Source: Bacteroidales bacterium (GTDB taxonomy: Bacteria > Bacteroidota > Bacteroidia > Bacteroidales > Rikenellaceae). From it: a DNA stretch of 64,000 nucleotides. The notes beneath the pieces were generated by a model. The model was not told where the DNA came from. It worked only from the letters and a program-made list of their open reading frames with translations, and did not search any database. Positions 53,955 to 63,784 of the stretch are shown piece by piece. The translations under genes were made by a program, and so were the position numbers. How positions within the stretch are numbered: position 1 is the first letter of the stretch; every line of letters starts with the position of its first letter. Location: positions 26,592 to 90,591 of the forward strand of contig CASPAC010000002.1 of NCBI GenBank assembly GCA_949419965.1. Reading direction: 5' to 3'.

Positions 53955-53980
53955 TGGAGCGGAAAACGACGCTTGAACCT
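53955..53980 (-). other. tRNA 3'-end-like remnant, candidate attachment site (attL)
   Basis: On the minus strand the sequence ends CGTTTTCCGCTCCA and is preceded by GGTTCAAGC, resembling a T-loop and the 3' acceptor arm plus CCA of a tRNA-Gly-type gene. The rest of a tRNA is missing: the upstream T-stem does not pair and no D or anticodon arms follow. Integration of tyrosine-recombinase elements into tRNA 3' ends leaves exactly such fragments, and an integrase gene lies 9-10 kb to the right. The matching full tRNA would be beyond position 64000. Confidence 0.35.
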
Positions 53981-54208
53981 TTCGTTGTTTCCCTTTATGT
54001 ATCAATATGTTCCGGCGAATTCTCGTTTTTGAGGTCACTACCTTGTAGTGTCTACTTTGCGCCGCAATGCATCTCTATGCTACAATACAAAAGTACGATT
54101 TATTTTTTGATATTAAAAAATATAGGCCTATAGTTTCCATAAGTTCAGTTTTCGTATAATCCCCTACCTAGTTTTACATGATCTCATAGACTGACAAATT
54201 TAGCCACA

Positions 54209-54336
54209 CAAAAAGAAAAGAATGGAATCCGACTCACGAAATTCCATTCTCTTAGGCATACCCATAAGGTCGTATGCAGAGCTATGTGTGTGAAGTTATT
54301 GTGAGCCTCGCTGCTGCACTGTTTCCGAAATCCGCA
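54209..54336 (-). ncRNA. Candidate DRT3-associated non-coding RNA 3' of drt3b
   Basis: Begins right after the drt3b TAA and ends in a strong terminator (AGAATGGAAT/ATTCCATTCT stem, then TTTCTTTTT). TGCAG-AGC (54318-54310) pairs with GCT-CTGCA (54282-54275) across a loop of about 27 bases that contains CACACACA (54292-54285, minus). A second, mutually exclusive hairpin GCATAC/GTATGC overlaps the right arm. No open frame of note is present. DRT3 systems are known to include an ncRNA; the position and boundaries here are my inference. It could instead simply be a 3' untranslated region. Confidence 0.45.
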
Positions 54337-56520
54337 TTAAGTGTACACTTCCTGCGAAACCTTCGCGCCTAATTCTTTGGTTAAATCAATATTCGTCCAT
54401 TTTGTAAACATGAATTTATGTTTACGGAAGTATCTTTCTATCAGAGTTTGTTTTGTTTCATCTATTTGCATAACCCGACACATAGTCTTTCTATCATGAT
54501 GCGTTATATACGGACATGCCAATAAATCAAGCGCAAGAATCATTAGCTCGGCATCTTTCCTTGCGTCCGGCAAATTTACTGAATTATACTTATTATTTAT
54601 CCCTTCTATCAAATGTTTTTTATCGTATTCAAAGGCCTTAGTATTGCCATAGTAGTACAATAAAATAATGATAGACAAAGCATTGAGCATATCAAATCGT
54701 CCTCCACTAGTGCCAGATAAATAGCTATTTAGGGATTTAGAATCTATTCCATAGTGTTTTGGCATAGATTTCAAAGTTATCAAAAAGTATAAGGTCTCTA
54801 TCTGCGCATTGACGTCAAATGAAGTTGTTTTGAATACTATGGTTATCTCGTTTTGTATCTTCTTGAAAATAGCATCTCTCAATGCAGACGAGAACCTTTT
54901 GATCGTAGAGCCATCCTTATCTCTATAGTTATTGCTTATGTAAATAATGATAATGTTCAATATATTCATCATTTTAAGCGTCGTATTCACTCGCTTACAA
55001 TCGGAATACAAGAAAAATATCACATCTATCATACCAGCAAGATATTGATGCAGCATCTTCTCCAACTGATGAATTCTCTTTTGACAATCATCTTCTCGTT
55101 TCCGTTGCGCAACAGCTTTACTCAATATGTAGAAATTTTTATCAAACTTCTTCAAAACAGACTCGAGCTTTGTAGAAGTTACCGCAAGAGTATAGTTCAT
55201 AATATCCCTGCTTTTTACATTATTCTCTACCATTAACGATTTGAATGCTCTATTGACTTCTTTAGCATTGATGTAAATAAAGTCTTTACATTCTAATGCT
55301 TCCTCAATTTTTCCATCATCAATATCCTCAATTTCTTCATCTTCAAAAGGTTCATCCTCCTGCGTATCTATATCCTGATGAGGCTTACGAATTCTGATAA
55401 AATCTGATAGAAGCGCATCAATCTTTATTTTAGACATAGAGATAGGTGTAATGAACGGTCGTTCGCAATCAATACTTTTTTCTTTGCTAATACATAATTT
55501 ATATTCATGCAACAAGTCCTCAAAAGTCGACATAGCTTTTTCAAGAACTTTTTCATCATTGTAATAAAAGAAAATATCATCAACATATCGATAACAACAA
55601 TAATGCTCATTGAAATTGTATCCAGCGACAAGTAGGGTCTGCTTTACTTTTTTGTCAATATATTGAAGTATTATTTCCGCAAATATTCTGGAGAATTCCG
55701 GGCCTATAACGATACCATTTGTCTCATTATAGTTCATTTTCTGCATAATGTTATCCCAATCATCCCCAAAAGATTTAGCTTTCCCGTTGAGATGTTTTTT
55801 ATACTCTTCCTTGCCACCACTTACAGCCCAAGTGAAAGAATGGGTATATATACTATCGAAGCAACTTTGAATGTCAAATTTATACAAACGCTCAAATCGT
55901 TTTTCTGCATTTTGATACTTATAGTCCTCATAGAACTTATAAATATTAGAGTATTCTTTATAACTAAAATATGTTTTGAGATTTTCATACTCATTAAAAA
56001 ATAGTTCTAATTTATCTATCTTTTGCCCTAACAACGTATGGTGCAGTCTATCTTTGTAGTAAAAATAGCACGCCACACGCTCGGGATGCCGCAAAGAAAA
56101 TTCATCCTGTCCGCAATAATACAATATTAGACTTTTGTACTTTTCATAAAAGGAAACGATCTCTATTTGATTCATCGGATGTATTAAAGCTAGTCGACGA
56201 AGTCTATGCGGTTTATGCTTAATCTTGTATAGAAATGGAATACTAACGGCCTTATTATTAATATTCTCCCGATTATTTGCCAAAGTGGTTAGATCGTTGT
56301 TTAGATAAGGAGAGAAAATAAAATTAAGCACAGCTAACGCATCTTTATTGATACCATCGTTCCACGATAATTCTTTACCGTCGAATTTCACTCCAGTACT
56401 AACAAGATATCTGTAAAAATAACGGTTGGTAAAAATCACAGGCAATTCATATGGAAGAACATCGGATAACAGCACGCGTTCTTTCTTGTATTTAAGGCGT
56501 ATTTTCTTGCTTGCTTTCAT
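54337..56520 (-). CDS. drt3b: Antiviral reverse transcriptase Drt3b (UG8-type)
   Basis: 727 residues. The N-terminus 'IRLKYKKERVLLSDVLPYEL' is the family start. The RT core shows motif A 'LYKFDIQSCFDSIY' (Asp ~216), motif B-like 'GIVIGPEFSRIFAEIIL' and motif C 'YRYVDDIFFYYN' (YVDD at ~312-315), so catalytic residues are intact. Residues ~382-404 form a very acidic linker, and the ~320-residue C-terminal part is helical, typical of 'unknown group' RTs. The ATG at 56520 overlaps the drt3a TGA as ATGA, indicating translational coupling; another ATG lies 9 bases upstream. The gene is strongly AT-rich compared with the core. It acts with Drt3a in anti-phage defence. Confidence 0.88.
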   Translation of the reverse strand: MKASKKIRLKYKKERVLLSDVLPYELPVIFTNRYFYRYLVSTGVKFDGKELSWNDGINKDALAVLNFIFSPYLNNDLTTLANNRENINNKAVSIPFLYKIKHKPHRLRRLALIHPMNQIEIVSFYEKYKSLILYYCGQDEFSLRHPERVACYFYYKDRLHHTLLGQKIDKLELFFNEYENLKTYFSYKEYSNIYKFYEDYKYQNAEKRFERLYKFDIQSCFDSIYTHSFTWAVSGGKEEYKKHLNGKAKSFGDDWDNIMQKMNYNETNGIVIGPEFSRIFAEIILQYIDKKVKQTLLVAGYNFNEHYCCYRYVDDIFFYYNDEKVLEKAMSTFEDLLHEYKLCISKEKSIDCERPFITPISMSKIKIDALLSDFIRIRKPHQDIDTQEDEPFEDEEIEDIDDGKIEEALECKDFIYINAKEVNRAFKSLMVENNVKSRDIMNYTLAVTSTKLESVLKKFDKNFYILSKAVAQRKREDDCQKRIHQLEKMLHQYLAGMIDVIFFLYSDCKRVNTTLKMMNILNIIIIYISNNYRDKDGSTIKRFSSALRDAIFKKIQNEITIVFKTTSFDVNAQIETLYFLITLKSMPKHYGIDSKSLNSYLSGTSGGRFDMLNALSIIILLYYYGNTKAFEYDKKHLIEGINNKYNSVNLPDARKDAELMILALDLLACPYITHHDRKTMCRVMQIDETKQTLIERYFRKHKFMFTKWTNIDLTKELGAKVSQEVYT

Positions 56521-57941
56521 GATAACCAATCACTTATTTCCGCTAATCTTCGAGGACTAAACTTAAACATAATGTGGTCGTGCCAACGCTGCTTAAAATC
56601 AATAGCACCAACCTTCTTTTGAATTGACGCTATGTATTTTGATCTATCATTTGATCCATTCAATACATTATAATATGGCGTTATCTGTTTAGACAACAAA
56701 TAATTATTTAAATTCTCTAAATCTGTCAAATCCGTCAAAAGGTCATTCCCGAAGAATAACCCGGCCTTGACTCGTTCTTTAGATTTTGCTAACCTATAAT
56801 TACCAGATATTAAATTAAGAGAGTCCAGAAGATCTCTTTTGGCTTGCTTAATATTTTTCTTGCTGACCTTTTCAAAATGCGTAAAAGCGGCATCTATTTT
56901 ATGTTTAATTTTGTCTGCTTTCTTATCGGACATACTAAATTCCGCATTTATCGCATTGCCTGTTTTAGAAATAGTAATCTTATAACCTAAATATGTAAAT
57001 TGTTGTCTTCTACCCAAGTTATAAAAATTAAAGAGTTTACACTTATCCTCTGTTGGATCGTTATTTTTAATCTTTAATCCATACTTGGCAAAAAATTCTT
57101 TGAGGGCTTTATAGTATTGGCAAATATTCTGATTATTAGGGAGCCCCATTAAAATTATCAAAATATCATCCACATAACGAGCATAAAATACGACTTCTTC
57201 TCGATTGCGAATATGCTGATCTATATCATGCATATATATTTCAGAGAGATATGAGCTTATTCCTATGCCTCTGGGCACACCGCAATTAGCCTTAATTCTT
57301 TGGGGATCTTTTTGCTTATTGTATTCTGACAATATCCCCTTAATCATTCCTTTTGTTTTGTAATTCACCAAGTTATTAGCACTTATTTTATCCAATAATG
57401 CTTGTTGTGGAATGGACTCAAAGAAACCAGTTATATCTGTGCGAATCAAATAGAATGGCGTTGTGGTATTCAAAAGCAATTTGACATTAGACATAATCTG
57501 ATGTTTATTTGCTTGTTTTACATTAAACAATCCTCTCAATGTTCGCTGTAAGTTCTTAATGGCATAAAAATACTCCCATTGACTGGTGTCAATTGTAAAT
57601 ATTTGTTTGTCATCGTCCGTATAATTCTTTATCGGGAATATAAAATCTTTATTATTGGCTATTTTTGCATATCTGCATAATTCATTGTATAATTCTTTGT
57701 CCCTATCTGTTTGTTTGGTTCTTATAGAAGATTTAAGTGCCTCCAACGCTACGACCTCTTCTTCTGTTCGATTATTCTTTTTCTTTTTTGTAATCCCATT
57801 AACCGCACTTTTCTTTGTCTTTATCTCCGCAACAATATTTCTGTAAGGTTCCGGCATATGGTCAAATGCAATATGCCCCTTACGATTCTCCTCGTGAAAA
57901 ATAGCAAGGTAATTCTCAACAGAAAACGACTGATCAAACAT
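56517..57941 (-). CDS. drt3a: Antiviral reverse transcriptase Drt3a (UG3-type)
   Basis: 474 residues from the ATG at 57941 (an ATG at 57950 adds three residues). The N-terminus 'MFDQSFSVENYLAIFHEENR' is the Drt3a family start. The RT core has motif A 'FYLIRTDITGFFESI' (Asp ~169), motif B 'GVPRGIGISSYLSEIYM' and motif C 'VVFYARYVDDILIILMG' (YVDD ~256-259), followed by a thumb with 'FTYLGYKITISKTGNAI'. There is no maturase, endonuclease or integrase domain, so it is not a group II intron or retrotransposon RT. It heads a two-gene operon with drt3b and has a TATTTTTG -7 box upstream. Predicted cytosolic defence enzyme. Confidence 0.88.
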   Translation of the reverse strand: MFDQSFSVENYLAIFHEENRKGHIAFDHMPEPYRNIVAEIKTKKSAVNGITKKKKNNRTEEEVVALEALKSSIRTKQTDRDKELYNELCRYAKIANNKDFIFPIKNYTDDDKQIFTIDTSQWEYFYAIKNLQRTLRGLFNVKQANKHQIMSNVKLLLNTTTPFYLIRTDITGFFESIPQQALLDKISANNLVNYKTKGMIKGILSEYNKQKDPQRIKANCGVPRGIGISSYLSEIYMHDIDQHIRNREEVVFYARYVDDILIILMGLPNNQNICQYYKALKEFFAKYGLKIKNNDPTEDKCKLFNFYNLGRRQQFTYLGYKITISKTGNAINAEFSMSDKKADKIKHKIDAAFTHFEKVSKKNIKQAKRDLLDSLNLISGNYRLAKSKERVKAGLFFGNDLLTDLTDLENLNNYLLSKQITPYYNVLNGSNDRSKYIASIQKKVGAIDFKQRWHDHIMFKFSPRRLAEISDWLS

Positions 57942-57961
57942 AAGCACCATATCTATTTGTT

Positions 57962-57969
57962 CAAAAATA
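57962..57969 (-). promoter_or_regulatory. drt3 operon -7 box
   Basis: TATTTTTG on the minus strand fits TAnnTTTG, 21 bases before the drt3a ATG at 57941, giving a very short leader. The -33 element is not obvious. Confidence 0.5.
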
Positions 57970-59111: not shown

Positions 59112-59552
59112 CTATCGTTGTAAAAATTTAGCTTCGTATTCCTTTGTCTGGGCAATAATATATTTGCTCAGCACGACGAGTTCGATGGTGCATTGTTCCA
59201 ATCGGTAGAGCATCTGCAAGGCACGCTTCTCGCCGAAGTTCGTCTTCAACGTCCGCACGATCTGGTTGTAATTGTTGCCGACGGCTTGGAACTGCCGGTA
59301 GAATTGTGTCAGCCGAACGTAATAATCGAGCGTTGTTTTGTCGACTTTCACGACCTTGATTTCACGTTTGAAAAGCACGGCCTTGATGAATTTCGAGTAA
59401 CAATCCAACCCCGAATCCTCGAACTTCTGTCGAAACAAGGTGTTTTCGTCATCGTTGAAATTTACCATATAGCGATGCTTTACCGGATCGAGCTTCGGCT
59501 TGCGGCCACCCGTATTGCGCGTATTTTTCTTCTGTTCCATCGTATTCGTCAT
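59112..59552 (-). CDS. MobA/MobC-type mobilization relaxosome protein
   Basis: 146 residues. A basic N-terminus ('TRNTGGRKPKLDPVKHRYMVNF') leads into a ribbon-helix-helix-like segment and a helical C-terminal half ('YYVRLTQFYRQFQAVGNNYNQIVRTLKTNFGEKRA'), the layout of MobA/BmgB relaxosome proteins of Bacteroidetes mobilizable elements ('GNNYNQIVR' is the usual 'G-N/V-N-x-N-Q' motif). It would bind oriT and help the relaxase. In most elements the relaxase gene follows directly, but here it does not. The ATG at 59552 is chosen over the long upstream frame, which runs through hairpins. Confidence 0.82.
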   Translation of the reverse strand: MTNTMEQKKNTRNTGGRKPKLDPVKHRYMVNFNDDENTLFRQKFEDSGLDCYSKFIKAVLFKREIKVVKVDKTTLDYYVRLTQFYRQFQAVGNNYNQIVRTLKTNFGEKRALQMLYRLEQCTIELVVLSKYIIAQTKEYEAKFLQR

Positions 59553-59591
59553 TTCACATTCATATTCCTCCGACTTTGGAGGAAAACGCCT

Positions 59592-59652
59592 CCGCTCCGG
59601 TCGGGAGCGGCGAGGTTTTGTGTTGCACGAAGACTTTCGTGTTGCACAAAAC
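59592..59652. promoter_or_regulatory. Tandem hairpins upstream of mobA-like gene, alternative oriT/leader
   Basis: CCGCTCC/GGAGCGG (59592-59610) is followed by GTTTTGTG-TTG-CACGAA and TTCGTG-TTG-CACAAAAC (59615-59652), a long symmetric hairpin with internal TTG/TTG loops. They lie 40-100 bases before the mobA-like start. This is a usual place for oriT in Bacteroidetes mobilizable elements. Confidence 0.45.
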
Positions 59653-60065
59653 ACAACTCGCCGTGAACGCTTGTTCACGAAAACGGCATCCCCAAACCAT
59701 AGTGATTCCTGCGAAAACCGGATCAGTCAGAGCGTATGACAAAAGTAGAGGCAATCATCCGATTCAACCTTATGATTTACGATGACATGCAATGTCAGGA
59801 GAGGACATATATCGTCATTCGGCTTTCCGCCATAGGATTATTCGGAACCGGCATGTTTCTTTGCTGCATGAACGAAGACAAACACCCAAGATTGAAAGAC
59901 TGCAAACAACAGTTCCTTATTGTTTGCATGAATGAATACAACCGGACAACCCGTCATGAAAACGGACAAGCGGGCAACCGAACAATCGGACATTACTTAA
60001 ACCACACCTGACTGAATGATTGCAACCATATCACCATGCAAACAAATGCCTTGCGAATGCCGGTC
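59653..60065. other. Gene-free spacer in the mobile element
   Basis: About 410 bases between the mob hairpins and the uncharacterised gene. It contains imperfect direct repeats around 'TTTGCATGAA-GAA' (59,863-59,935) and runs of short ORFs with no recognisable domain. I see no gene that I can support. Confidence 0.45.
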
Positions 60066-60890
60066 TTACTTGCTCTCCTGTATTCCGATTTCGTATGCTT
60101 CCGGTCGGAACAGGTCGACTGGTTTCAATGTCAGATTCCGTTCTCTCCGGTAGGCTTCCAAATCCAGCAGATGACGGAATAGCAGGAACTGCTGCGCAAT
60201 GGTTTCGCCGTCGGGACGCTGAGTGCCCAGCATCCAATGCGTATTCCTTGCGGTAAGGGCATAGGCAAAGATTTTGGCGGCGAGATAATTGTTCTGTGCC
60301 GTATCTCTCTGCTGATAGATTTCCTGCATGTCGCCCGACTCCCGCAGCAGCAGATAGGCTTTTCTTGGCGGCGGTGTCAACCATTGGCGCAGGAACACTT
60401 GCGGCAGACGGTTTGTCTTGACCTTGAACTTATGCCGCTGGATATACTCGATGCTCTGCCGCAGTTCTGCATAAGGGTCGTAATGCCGGCTGTCGGGATT
60501 CAAATACTCTTTGCACTCTATGGGATAGGGAGTACAAAGTACGAAGAATCCGGGATCGCACAATTCATGCTGCACGGGTATAGGAATGCCGACGAGGGCT
60601 TTCTGAAACCGGGCGGCTATCGAAGCTCCTGCCGTACGTTTGTTGAAAATGATGAAATCGCAACGCTCGATGAAGTACGCATAAATCGGAACCGACAACT
60701 CGACTATCGAATCGGCCTTTTTCCTTATCTGCCCATACAGCAATGCCGTATCGTGCTCTTGCCGGTATTGCTCCGCAAGAACCATTGTCAACTGCAATCC
60801 CGGAACGGTTTTCTTCAACTCCAGCAAGGCATGGCAGAACATCAAGTCATCGGGAGCAGATACTGCAACCAATAATCGGAATGCGGACAT
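60066..60890 (-). CDS. Uncharacterised mobile-element protein
   Basis: 274 residues if started at the ATG 60890 ('MSAFRLLVAVSAPDDLMFCHALLEL'); the frame is open to 61124, with further Met codons at 60989. The opening looks like an alpha/beta strand-loop-helix, 'GASIAARFQKALVGIPIPV' and 'CDPGFFVLCTPYPIECKEYL' follow, and the last third is Gln/Arg-rich and helical. No membrane segment remains when the later start is used. I do not recognise the family. It is transcribed towards the mob gene and away from the XRE regulator, within the integrase-bearing element. Confidence 0.65.
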   Translation of the reverse strand: MSAFRLLVAVSAPDDLMFCHALLELKKTVPGLQLTMVLAEQYRQEHDTALLYGQIRKKADSIVELSVPIYAYFIERCDFIIFNKRTAGASIAARFQKALVGIPIPVQHELCDPGFFVLCTPYPIECKEYLNPDSRHYDPYAELRQSIEYIQRHKFKVKTNRLPQVFLRQWLTPPPRKAYLLLRESGDMQEIYQQRDTAQNNYLAAKIFAYALTARNTHWMLGTQRPDGETIAQQFLLFRHLLDLEAYRRERNLTLKPVDLFRPEAYEIGIQESK

Positions 60891-61124
60891 GGAACCGCAA
60901 TAATACTGCAAGGTGAACTTGAAGTATTCGACCGTATCCGTTGTAGCAGGATAGCCGCCCAACAAACCGATGGTATAGAGAGGAAACATCAAAATCCGAT
61001 AAAGGGCCGAAAAAAGGATGGAAAAGGAAATAAAAAAACGAGGGCGCAAGTACAGCACCTTCCGGTCGGCCTCGCGAGCCTCAGATCGGTAAACTGCCCC
61101 TACGCCCAAGCCAGCCGCCTGCAT

Positions 61125-61684: not shown

Positions 61685-62518
61685 CTACTTTTCTTCGGAT
61701 TTCAGCGGCAGCGCCTGTTTCGCATTCAGCGGCGAGACAACCGGTTGGCCCGTTTCCTGTTCCAAGCGTTCGCGGGCTTCACGGGCAACCGAACCGCCGC
61801 GTCGGGCGACCTCGGCATGCTGTCCGAAAGTCCGAGGATTCCGCGCTTCGGAAATCTCTTTGGTCGAGAGTTCGGCAAGCATGTTCAACACCAATTCCTT
61901 ATTGGTCATGTTGTCGCGCAGGTTCTCTTTTTTCAATCCCTTGAACCGTTTGTACTCCTTGGCACTTTTACCGGCCCATGTGCGATAGATGATGTCGGTC
62001 AGTGTGGCGAACTGCACGCCTTCCTGCAAGCCATGCTTCCGCCACTCATCGGTCAGTTCCTTGCGGATTTCGATGCTTTTCAGCCGTTGGTTGATCCAGT
62101 TTTCAGAGTAGCCCAGCCGCTTGTAGTCGGTCAAAGCCTGTTCGATGCCCAGTTCCGGGTCTTGCATCCGGTCGAGCCGTTCGCGCGCCACCTGCGCCAT
62201 CCATAATTTGAACGGCTCGGCCTTGGGCGAGGGGATGGATTGAATCAACCGAAACAACTGTTCGGTATCGGCCACGTCCGTCAGACGCATTTTGCCGTCG
62301 GCAGCAGGCATTTTCAACTGGTGACAATTTGTCACCGTTTCATTTCCTTCCTCTTTTAGCCGCTGTTTCAGCTTGTTCCAATACTTGCGCCCATCGACGC
62401 TATCGGTCAATACCGAAACAACATCGACAACCGAAAAATACCATTTCTCCTCAACATCGTCCCAAAGAGTGCGCACGCGCCGCTCCTCGAAAATCCGGAT
62501 TGTATTCTGCTGTGTCAT
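61685..62518 (-). CDS. Bro-N domain protein (antirepressor/DinD-like)
   Basis: 277 residues. The N-terminal Bro-N/DinD-type domain is recognised by 'IRIFEERRVRTLWDDVEEKWYFSVVDVVSVLTDS' and 'RKYWNKLKQRLKEEGNETVTNCHQLKM'. The rest resembles the DNA-damage-inducible protein D-like family ('QALTDYKRLGYSENWINQRLKSIEIRKELTDEW', 'THE' being replaced here by 'TLTDIIYRTWAGKSAKEYKRFKGLKKENLRDNM'). A helical tail with 'SVAREARERLEQETGQPVVS' closes it. Such proteins occur on phages and mobile elements. It lies 40 bases downstream of the integrase gene on the same strand. Confidence 0.83.
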   Translation of the reverse strand: MTQQNTIRIFEERRVRTLWDDVEEKWYFSVVDVVSVLTDSVDGRKYWNKLKQRLKEEGNETVTNCHQLKMPAADGKMRLTDVADTEQLFRLIQSIPSPKAEPFKLWMAQVARERLDRMQDPELGIEQALTDYKRLGYSENWINQRLKSIEIRKELTDEWRKHGLQEGVQFATLTDIIYRTWAGKSAKEYKRFKGLKKENLRDNMTNKELVLNMLAELSTKEISEARNPRTFGQHAEVARRGGSVAREARERLEQETGQPVVSPLNAKQALPLKSEEK

Positions 62519-62557: not shown

Positions 62558-63784
62558 TTATTGCAGCGAATTCAGCCGCCTGCCGAAAGCCGCCATTTCC
62601 CGGCCGATGACCGTCTCGGAGAATTTGGCGTAGTGCCGTGTCATGTTGGTATTGGAGTGTCCGAGAATCTTGGCGATGATGTCGATGGGCATACCATACT
62701 CGATGGCCAACGTCGCAAAAGTATGCCGAGCAAGATGCGTCGTCAAGTGTTTGCGGATATTGCAGATGTCGGCGATCTCTTTCAAGTAGGCGTTCATCTT
62801 CTGGTTGCTGGGAACCGGCAACAATTTCCCTTTAATCTGCAATGCCGGGTCATTCTTGTACTTATCGAGCACCTTTATGGGATAAGGCAACAAAGGCACA
62901 CGACTCATCACGGCTGTTTTCTCTCTTGGTTTATGAATCCAATGTATTCCCTGCTCGTCCGTTGTGATGTGCTCTTGGTGTAGGTGTTCCGCATCGGTGA
63001 AAGCCAATCCGGTCAGGCAGCAAAAGCAAAAGACATCGCGGATTCTGTCGAGCCGGTCGTTGGGCAAAGATTTGCGGATAAGCGTATCGAGTTCTGTTTT
63101 GGTCAAAGGCACCTTGACGTTGGCCTTGTCGATCTTCATCTTGTAATACCGGAACGGATTCTTTTCGATCCACTCGTTGCGGATAGCGTAGAGGATGAAG
63201 TTTTTCAGACAACACAACAAATTCACAGCACCGTTGTTCTTACATTGATGCGCCGTCTGCATGAACGTATTCAGTCCGTCGATATACTCGTAGGTAACGG
63301 CATCCAACGGCAAATCATCCTTCTTGTATTGCTCCTTCGTGTATTCGGCCATATAACGCAACAGACGGTGATATTTGTTCGCTGTCAGCTGGGTAATCCG
63401 CACACCGACCTCTTTCTGCCGCTTGTCGCAGTATTTGGAGAACTCGGCGAGGAACATTCGAGAGTTGCCCGCTGCATGCTCCAACCGCTCTTTGATAGCG
63501 AAACAATCGGCATCCTTACCCTCCTTGATGATGCTATCGTAAGCGGCGAGGATATTGGCCCGACAAGAAGCGATGATTTCATTGATCCGCATTGAAACGG
63601 CATCCCGCAGCATGCAACGCTCCAGTCGCTGGTTCCAATGCTGAGGCTCGACCTGACACTGGGTATGAATCTCGGTAATCTGACCGGAAGTGGTGATGCG
63701 GGCATAAATGGGAGCCTTGCCCTTTTTGTTGAGTTTGGTTTTCTTACAGAAGAAAACGACGGAGAAAGTGATACGTCTGCACAT
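62558..63784 (-). CDS. Tyrosine-type site-specific integrase
   Basis: 408 residues. An arm-binding N-terminus ('FFCKKTKLNKKGKAPIYARITTSGQ') and a SAM-like core-binding domain ('MFLAEFSKYCDKRQKEVGVRITQLTANKYHRLLRYM') precede the catalytic domain. Catalytic residues visible are Lys in 'HKPREKTAV', 'THLARHTFATLAIEYG' (His-x-x-Arg) and 'LGHSNTNMTRHYAK' (His and the nucleophile Tyr). The first catalytic Arg position reads 'TGLAFTDAEHL' with Ala instead of Arg. It probably excises and integrates the element carrying DRT3. It is at the right edge of the window, the typical position next to an attachment site. Confidence 0.92.
   Translation of the reverse strand: MCRRITFSVVFFCKKTKLNKKGKAPIYARITTSGQITEIHTQCQVEPQHWNQRLERCMLRDAVSMRINEIIASCRANILAAYDSIIKEGKDADCFAIKERLEHAAGNSRMFLAEFSKYCDKRQKEVGVRITQLTANKYHRLLRYMAEYTKEQYKKDDLPLDAVTYEYIDGLNTFMQTAHQCKNNGAVNLLCCLKNFILYAIRNEWIEKNPFRYYKMKIDKANVKVPLTKTELDTLIRKSLPNDRLDRIRDVFCFCCLTGLAFTDAEHLHQEHITTDEQGIHWIHKPREKTAVMSRVPLLPYPIKVLDKYKNDPALQIKGKLLPVPSNQKMNAYLKEIADICNIRKHLTTHLARHTFATLAIEYGMPIDIIAKILGHSNTNMTRHYAKFSETVIGREMAAFGRRLNSLQ

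Follow-up and report, generated by a model that had tools for sequence, protein, structure and literature searches.

A candidate DRT3 anti-phage locus with a compact non-coding RNA on a Bacteroidales mobile element

DRT3 offers a striking recent example of protein side chains directing DNA synthesis. As described in the available text of Wang et al. 2026 (PMC13174585), DRT3a of the Escherichia coli system (EcoDRT3; PDB 26cz) copies an ACACAC stretch of a non-coding RNA (ncRNA) encoded downstream of drt3b into poly(TG). The second reverse transcriptase (RT), DRT3b, is primed by its own Y666 and synthesises poly(CA); E22 selects dA and R241 dC, assisted by R71. The duplex is limited by RecBCD and released by phage Gam, and the ncRNA is required for defence. 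The RNA model published there was trained on close E. coli relatives (32 to 41 homologues). The DRT3 of Deng et al. 2026 is presented, in the available portions of PMC13314766 and PMC13213688, as a 6:6:6 complex of two RTs with an ncRNA. Here we examined a locus of this kind in a 64,000-nucleotide stretch of a Bacteroidales bacterium of the Rikenellaceae (GCA_949419965.1, contig CASPAC010000002.1, positions 26,592 to 90,591), hereafter the window, whose coordinates are used throughout. Computation revealed both RT genes, an ncRNA with a template and a covarying fold, the kept catalytic and base-selecting residues, and the edge of the element carrying them. We consider it highly probable (about 0.9) that the locus is a complete DRT3 anti-phage system consisting of Drt3a, Drt3b and a cis-encoded ncRNA 3' of drt3b. 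DRT3 is an already named kind of system; the compact ncRNA is the new part.

Concerning more distant systems, DRT10 (UG17) and telomerase resemble DRT3 in that a short RNA template is recopied and its 5' end is set by structure, as far as described in the available text of PMC12632851. According to the same source, the 5' boundary of the template is set in DRT10 by an adjoining stem-loop, and in telomerase RNAs by a stem-loop or a pseudoknot. Unlike DRT3, the DRT10 described there has a single, protein-primed RT, longer repeats and a SLATT partner, and neither DRT10 nor telomerase is described there with a partner RT for the opposite strand.

The two reverse transcriptases and their kept residues

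The two RT genes are adjacent on the minus strand, in the order drt3a-drt3b. The drt3a gene (UG3, class 2 RT; 56517..57941) encodes 474 residues; its start was taken at 57941, an ATG common to its relatives, within an open frame that begins at 57950. The drt3b gene (UG8, class 1 RT with an alpha-helical repeat domain; 54337..56520) encodes 727 residues, and its start overlaps the drt3a stop in an ATGA at 56517..56520 (minus strand). YVDD motifs are present at residues 256-259 of Drt3a (57165-57176, minus strand) and 312-315 of Drt3b, and the RT active sites of both proteins are intact. Both NCBI family models were the best matches and passed their cut-offs: Drt3a NF041747 with 314.9 bits (cut-off 200) and Drt3b NF041748 with 647.2 bits (cut-off 350). 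PADLOC gave the same assignment for both genes, with 302.4 bits for Drt3a. RVT_1 was the sole Pfam domain in either protein, and Pfam detected no maturase, endonuclease or integrase domain in them. The initial annotation, made from the sequence alone, had proposed just such a UG3+UG8 pair of intact, ATGA-coupled RT genes lacking these additional domains, and is borne out on each of these points. It had also named better matches to group II intron or retron RTs as the outcome that would speak against it. Here, group II maturase models reached 80.9 and 37.6 bits against a cut-off of 300, and the retron St85 model 40.7 bits against 235. The interval it had given (54337..57969) does contain both genes; it runs to 28 nt upstream of the drt3a start and leaves out the ncRNA at 54216-54336.

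The solved DRT3 proteins match both window proteins by sequence. They did not appear in the PDB fold-search listings and were found through sequence instead. Drt3b matched PDB 26cz with an E-value of 1.9e-69 and PDB 9z6y, whose Drt3b has 650 residues, with 3.7e-58; judging from their molecule names, 9z6y and 9z6z presumably belong to Deng et al. 2026. The window locus shares with EcoDRT3, in the available description of the latter, the order drt3a-drt3b-ncRNA, the YVDD sites, equivalents of E22, R241, R71 and Y666, and an AC-repeat template downstream of drt3b. It differs in the length of Drt3b (727 residues against 667, with an acidic insert), in an RNA without a stem-loop between pseudoknot and template, and probably in the phylum of the host. 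Window Drt3b is 33.5% identical to an E. coli Drt3b and 50% identical to that of an annotated DRT3 of Bacteroides finegoldii (NZ_OY725958.1, L031), which has an RNA of the same type, with the pseudoknot 8 nt from the template, and unlike the window locus lies on a plasmid record. Drt3a is 67-83% identical over nearly its full length in loci L040-L044. Identity to the class 1 RTs AbiK, DRT4, DRT6 and UG15 was 13-19%. AbiK and UG15 are single-RT systems. DRT4 and DRT6 are also described as such in the available text of PMC13213688.

The predicted structure of Drt3b (pLDDT 83.7) shows helices at residues 359-721 after the RT domain, corresponding to the alpha-helical repeat domain. Near the start of this domain, residues 374-410 contain 16 Asp/Glu and 4 Lys/Arg, and residues 383-394 are disordered in the model. 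This acidic stretch, which the initial annotation had called unusual, is real but is shared by the clade, as 114 of 116 database proteins compared carry a net charge of -6 or lower in the linker. The 116 were drawn from 120 listed of 5182 matches, and one is identical to the window protein. Among the proteobacterial proteins displayed, the linker is shorter and carries less acidic charge. Most simply, it would be a flexible spacer where the helical domain begins.

In all, searches of genomes, plasmids and sampled genomes yielded 95 loci that contain a Drt3b match, the window among them. One genome search yielded 30 loci, the five best of which were used, and 4 of 395 Bacteroidota genomes exceeded the Drt3b cut-off. 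Of 338 relatives detected by the sampled-genome scan, the best 80 were kept; that scan used two sequence patterns, one of which holds the Arg equivalent to R278. Among plasmid records, 205 matched Drt3b, three of them at 80% coverage, and the best nine were examined. Viral contigs gave seven pattern matches to Drt3b with no relative among them, and eight phage records had partial Drt3b matches, none with at least 80% query coverage. Of the 95 loci, two duplicates among them, 93 have a drt3a-like frame ahead of drt3b on the same strand; the exceptions are L004, without such a frame in its contig piece, and the divergent L039. Residues and templates were surveyed in 88 loci spanning Bacteroidota, Pseudomonadota and others, after exclusion of the duplicates L001 (of L085) and L003 (of L069, a Bacteroides pyogenes locus with which it is identical) and of L032, L044, L045, L067 and L092, which are cut, gapped or split.

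Residue equivalents were placed by alignment to 26cz and ten other Drt3b proteins. The counterpart of the dATP-selecting E22 is E25 (codon 56446..56448, minus strand), Glu in 85 of the 88 loci. Of the three departures, L004 and L070 have a cut or shifted N-terminus and L035 has Asp, a replacement that is partly active at the E22 position in the E. coli system, according to the available text of PMC13174585. The dCTP-selecting R241 corresponds to R278 (55687..55689, minus strand), Arg in 88/88, a count partly due to selection, since that Arg is contained in one of the two patterns of the scan from which 76 of the 88 loci came; the other 11 relatives, found without that scan, also have the equivalent Arg. 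R108, equivalent to R71, is kept in 87/88. The priming Y666 corresponds by its C-terminal position to Y726 of 727 (54343..54345, minus strand), Tyr in 87/88. The Drt3b active site is kept in nearly all 88 loci.

Several loci depart from the usual form. L039, on a Pediococcus pentosaceus plasmid (NZ_CP085475.1, 2557-6010), carries divergent Drt3a-like and Drt3b-like genes, with an ACACAC between them (minus strand, 3873) and an IS30 transposase gene 15 nt past the stop codon of drt3b; it is possibly a rearranged DRT3 with the RNA between the genes. L005 (135-3384) has tandem Drt3a-like and Drt3b-like genes. Its Drt3b is below the cut-off at 299.6 bits and keeps the Glu, the Arg and the C-terminal Tyr; downstream there is no AC template like that of an ncRNA, and L005 is possibly a DRT3 relative with another template. 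L006 (868-2406, minus strand) encodes a 512-residue class 1 RT-like protein in which YxDD is apparently missing at the usual place. In E. coli, one DRT3 lineage was present in 9 of 5426 complete genomes at the sensitivity used, and in both regions examined from it (L130 and L131) an annotated integrase gene stands beside DRT3.

The non-coding RNA and its template

A region of about 120 nt between the drt3b stop, where its 5' bound was set, and the end of a terminator hairpin (54216..54336, minus strand) is, by its sequence, most likely the ncRNA and the third part of the DRT3 locus, which the initial annotation had overlooked. The sequence CACACACA at 54285..54292 (minus strand), 44 nt after the drt3b stop, is the predicted template for poly(TG) synthesis by Drt3a. 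An AC run of at least six nucleotides occurs within 450 nt after drt3b in 87 of the 88 loci, the sole miss being L039; L005 is doubtful among the 87 as its run lies within a following open frame. The same template search on the antisense strand gave 5/88. Within 130 nt, AC runs were found in 83/88 loci on the sense strand, compared with 2/88 on the antisense strand, 1/88 inside drt3b and 4.3% of shuffled sequences. Template, base-selecting residues and priming tyrosine occur together almost throughout the 88 loci, an argument for a poly(TG):poly(CA) product that is essential and not free to drift.

The template lies inside a covarying fold of four helices and 28 pairs, counted in 11 window-like loci (alignment A2); all elements are on the minus strand. 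Helix P1 (54275..54318) pairs 54314-54318 and 54310-54312 with 54280-54282 and 54275-54279, thereby enclosing a pseudoknot strand and the template; 88.6% of cells are paired over its 8 pairs, four of which show changes on both sides. The pseudoknot is formed by a 5' strand, GGCUCAC (54301..54307), 8 nt 5' of the template, and a 3' strand, GUGAGUC (54231..54237), in the loop of the terminator hairpin, giving 7 pairs with 97.4% of cells paired and both-side changes in five. The small hairpin P2 (54253..54264) has 4 pairs, 100% of cells paired, all four with both-side changes. The terminator hairpin P3 with its T run (54216..54253) has a 15-pair stem, a loop of 8 and a T-rich tail, with both-side changes in 7 of 9 counted pairs; its outermost base (54253) is common to the end of P2. 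Over the whole structure 94.8% of cells are paired and 20 of 28 pairs show both-side changes. None of 500 shuffles scored as high, and slid versions paired 27-41% of cells. A covariance model without the pseudoknot (R1) found 12 matches at E<0.01 among 80 loci outside its training, starting from about 22 nt before to 66 nt after the drt3b end. At E up to 1 there were 17 weaker matches, two of them (L076 and L093) elsewhere, and 51 loci gave none.

As the structure had been found by eye in A2 and other loci, we applied two rule-based tests to wider data. The tests used a different set of 88 loci, without L001, L003 and L032, and without L039, L044, L067 and L092, in which no template run within 300 nt after the frame was scored. 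Test 1 selected the best terminator-like hairpin of each locus by rule and matched its loop against the 45 nt on the 5' side of the template. The mean score was 12.0 with the own loop and 9.9 with those of mismatched loci (highest of 300 shuffles, 10.5). A score of at least 14 was reached with the own loop in 39/88 loci, against a mean of 7.0 and a maximum of 19 in 2000 reshuffled pairings. Because many rows are related, these permutations overstate independence, which is mended in part by taking one locus per distinct loop: 28/67 then scored at least 14, against a mean of 5.0 and a maximum of 13. By groups set from organism title and identity, 15 of 19 window-type Bacteroidales and 24 of 56 others scored. 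Test 2 covered the 32 Bacteroidales loci, with the position fixed at 8-18 nt before the template and every downstream hairpin admitted; 22 reached 13, and among 19 distinct segments 15 did so, against a mean of 7.4 and a maximum of 14 in 2000 shuffles. Complementarity persists despite wide divergence, as in TCAGACCCT/AGGGTCTGA, CAAACTTC/GAAGTTTG and AGTGCTC/GAGCACT. Covariation thus indicates that a pseudoknot joins the 5' flank of the template with the loop of the terminator hairpin. For the related E. coli loci L130 and L131, a stem-loop of the RNA ends one base before the template, and the ten longest runs listed contained no clear pseudoknot of the same form. The word pseudoknot is absent from the main text of PMC13174585, in a comparison outside which the structure paper of Deng et al. 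2026 lies. In the literature on DRT ncRNAs, as available in part, pseudoknots appear in the DRT2 paper, and the DRT10 paper uses the word for telomerase.

The proposed template boundary and mechanism

The position of the pseudoknot differs between branches. We scanned 87 loci (L005 also excluded) for a stem-loop ending within 2 nt of the template. Outside Bacteroidales, 34 of 55 loci had one at a score of at least 9 (shuffled mean 10.7) and 22 of 55 at a score of at least 12 (3.1); in the two Bacteroidales groups the count was 1/32, at or under chance. A quick Drt3b tree of 87 rows, 86 labelled (L110 left out, L039 unlabelled, long branches flagged), placed the two Bacteroidales groups in one branch of 31 rows (SH-aLRT 98), outside which lie L083 and L093, titled Saccharicrinis and Paludibacter. 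Counted on this tree at a score of at least 10, the stem-loop occurs in 1/31 branch rows versus 28/55 elsewhere, with at least nine changes over the tree. L085 and some others outside the branch also have no stem-loop, so that compactness is not unique to the branch. The distance from pseudoknot strand to template is 7-10 nt in the 15 scoring window-type loci, too short to accommodate a hairpin of four pairs and three loop bases. Among the other 24 scoring loci it ranges from 10 to 39 nt and is 21-29 nt in 17.

We infer from this arrangement that the pseudoknot may act as the template 5' boundary in the compact Bacteroidales RNAs. The evolutionary form of the proposal, that the Bacteroidales DRT3 lineage lost the stem-loop and the pseudoknot to the terminator loop took over its role, is tentative, and we rate its chances at slightly under even. 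If it holds, the compact RNAs, with their template and pseudoknot boundary, would represent a minimal bacterial equivalent of telomerase RNA that works beside a protein-templated enzyme. With the covarying pseudoknot and the compact RNA, the question of what bounds the template becomes a specific hypothesis open to testing, and the window system, at about 3.7 kb overall, is a small construct for that purpose. An alternative is that the pseudoknot is a folding or assembly contact, for example in a hexameric complex. The DRT2 RNA is held together by pseudoknots, according to the available text of PMC12596737, and in various non-Bacteroidales loci the pseudoknot coexists with a separate template stem-loop. 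Set against such a contact is the spacing fixed at 7-10 nt in the scoring window-type loci, too short for another hairpin. We regard the assembly contact as a serious possibility, with odds clearly short of even.

For the locus as a whole, we propose that Drt3a would repeatedly copy CACACACA of the ncRNA into poly(dT-dG), the pseudoknot 7-10 nt 5' of the template marking the 5' end of the template in the Bacteroidales branch. Drt3b, primed by its own Tyr726, would make the complementary poly(dC-dA) without a nucleic-acid template, with Glu25 and Arg278 selecting dA and dC, and the strands would anneal. The locus thus most likely makes poly(TG):poly(CA) duplex DNA. A host helicase-nuclease, probably AddAB-like instead of RecBCD, would keep the duplex down, and a phage disabling that nuclease would let the duplex accumulate and the infected cell be arrested. 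Products, guard step and arrest are here extrapolated from the E. coli work, and the guard model could apply with AddAB for RecBCD. The nearest genome (G001) encodes two PDDEXK_1 proteins (open frames of 994 and 1429 residues) and a GreA/GreB domain.

A number of observations weigh against these interpretations. On its own, the window RNA folds with no exceptional stability (z -1.45; 18 of 200 shuffles do equally well), and in the minimum-energy fold the terminator stem is retained while the template pairs with bases beyond the terminator. Single-sequence folding was set aside for the comparative tests because no significant stability was found. Rfam has no family for the ncRNA, with nothing in 54100-54400 at E up to 1. 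In test 1 the second Bacteroidales group scored in 0/13 loci, and L046, L062 and 8 of the 10 near-identical loci L056-L070 failed to score in test 2; a CCAAC/GUUGG pairing is visible by eye in the L056-L070 group. As for the host nuclease, the PDDEXK_1 genes of G001 lie on opposite strands about 6 kb apart, in the genome of a relative and not of the window itself, and their putative AddAB identity comes from one shared domain.

Other explanations concern the locus itself. The RTs might stem from a retroelement (group II maturase or retron) or another UG/Abi class, the neighbouring CACACACA being there by chance. Both RTs do match RVT_1, group II maturase models score weakly, and six copies of CACACACA occur across both strands of the window. 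The rival models nevertheless fall short of their cut-offs by about 190 bits or more where those of Drt3a and Drt3b pass, and the AC run follows the sense strand and lies inside the covarying fold. Family scores, fold and strand control together refute this explanation, to which we assign almost no probability. A DRT3 of the Bacteroidales branch might also have diverged in function, with another product or an RNA-independent action. The low identity to E. coli Drt3b, an ncRNA lacking the stem-loop common elsewhere and the acidic disordered insert would fit such a divergence, which is very unlikely given that template run, base-selecting residues, priming Tyr and Drt3b active site are kept nearly throughout the survey. 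That the locus is a decayed passenger, silent or inactive, is very unlikely. The promoter search led to no assignment, sigma-70-like sites being no more frequent than in shuffles (21 vs 19.8), as decay would allow, but frames, key residues and RNA helices are intact, and four relatives keep the whole block at 68-86% DNA identity.

The mobile element and its other genes

The GC content falls from about 0.60 to 0.32-0.35 over the RT genes. G001 is 98% identical to the window and collinear from 50001, the query start, to 53978, where the two part. Since G001 continues into a full tRNA-Gly(gcc), of which the window keeps the last 24 nt (53955..53978, plus strand), the element begins there, and we designate these 24 nt its left attachment site; tRNA-Gly was the only Rfam match at gathering scores in the whole window. 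A low-GC stretch at 52-53.98 kb is also present in G001 and is thus outside the element. The ncRNA terminator lies about 240 nt inside the left edge, and the element extends past 64000. A tyrosine integrase gene is found at 62558..63784 (minus strand; PF00589, PF13102, PF17293; phrog_1 integrase). The AT-rich, integrase-bearing element postulated by the initial annotation is supported, with its edge now sharpened to the tRNA 3' end at 53978. The integrase gene and the tRNA 3' end at the edge are as expected of an integrative mobilisable element that entered a tRNA gene, here tRNA-Gly(gcc), and the cassette occupies the left end of this element.

In loci L040-L043 the similarity is a single block that sets in close to the beginning of drt3a and stops at the terminator (54208-54217). 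The flanks of these loci, at most 4 kb per side, contained no match to the other genes of the element. Accordingly, drt3a, drt3b and the ncRNA seem to move together as a single cassette in differing genetic surroundings. Upstream of drt3a by 20 nt, at 57962-57969, lies a match to TANNTTTG, which we take to be the Bacteroides -7 consensus; with 42 such matches in the window against 15 expected, it is a lead only.

Among the other genes, a MobC-like mobilisation gene (59112..59678, minus strand; PF19514, 181.1 bits), given as an open frame whose real start is probably further in, was the sole mobilisation-type Pfam match among nine proteins scanned. A 352-residue protein (60066-61124, minus strand) had no Pfam, PADLOC or PHROGs match at the thresholds used. 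The Bro-N protein (61685-62518, minus strand) matched the PADLOC candidate PDC-S13 (451.9 bits) and phrog_15286 (397.7 bits), and its gene is possibly a second defence or regulatory gene of the element. On contig 8 of G001 (L126, 4323-4910) we found a second tRNA-Gly(gcc) followed by a fragment 60% identical to the window integrase; the tRNA-Gly(gcc) family looks like a repeated insertion site.

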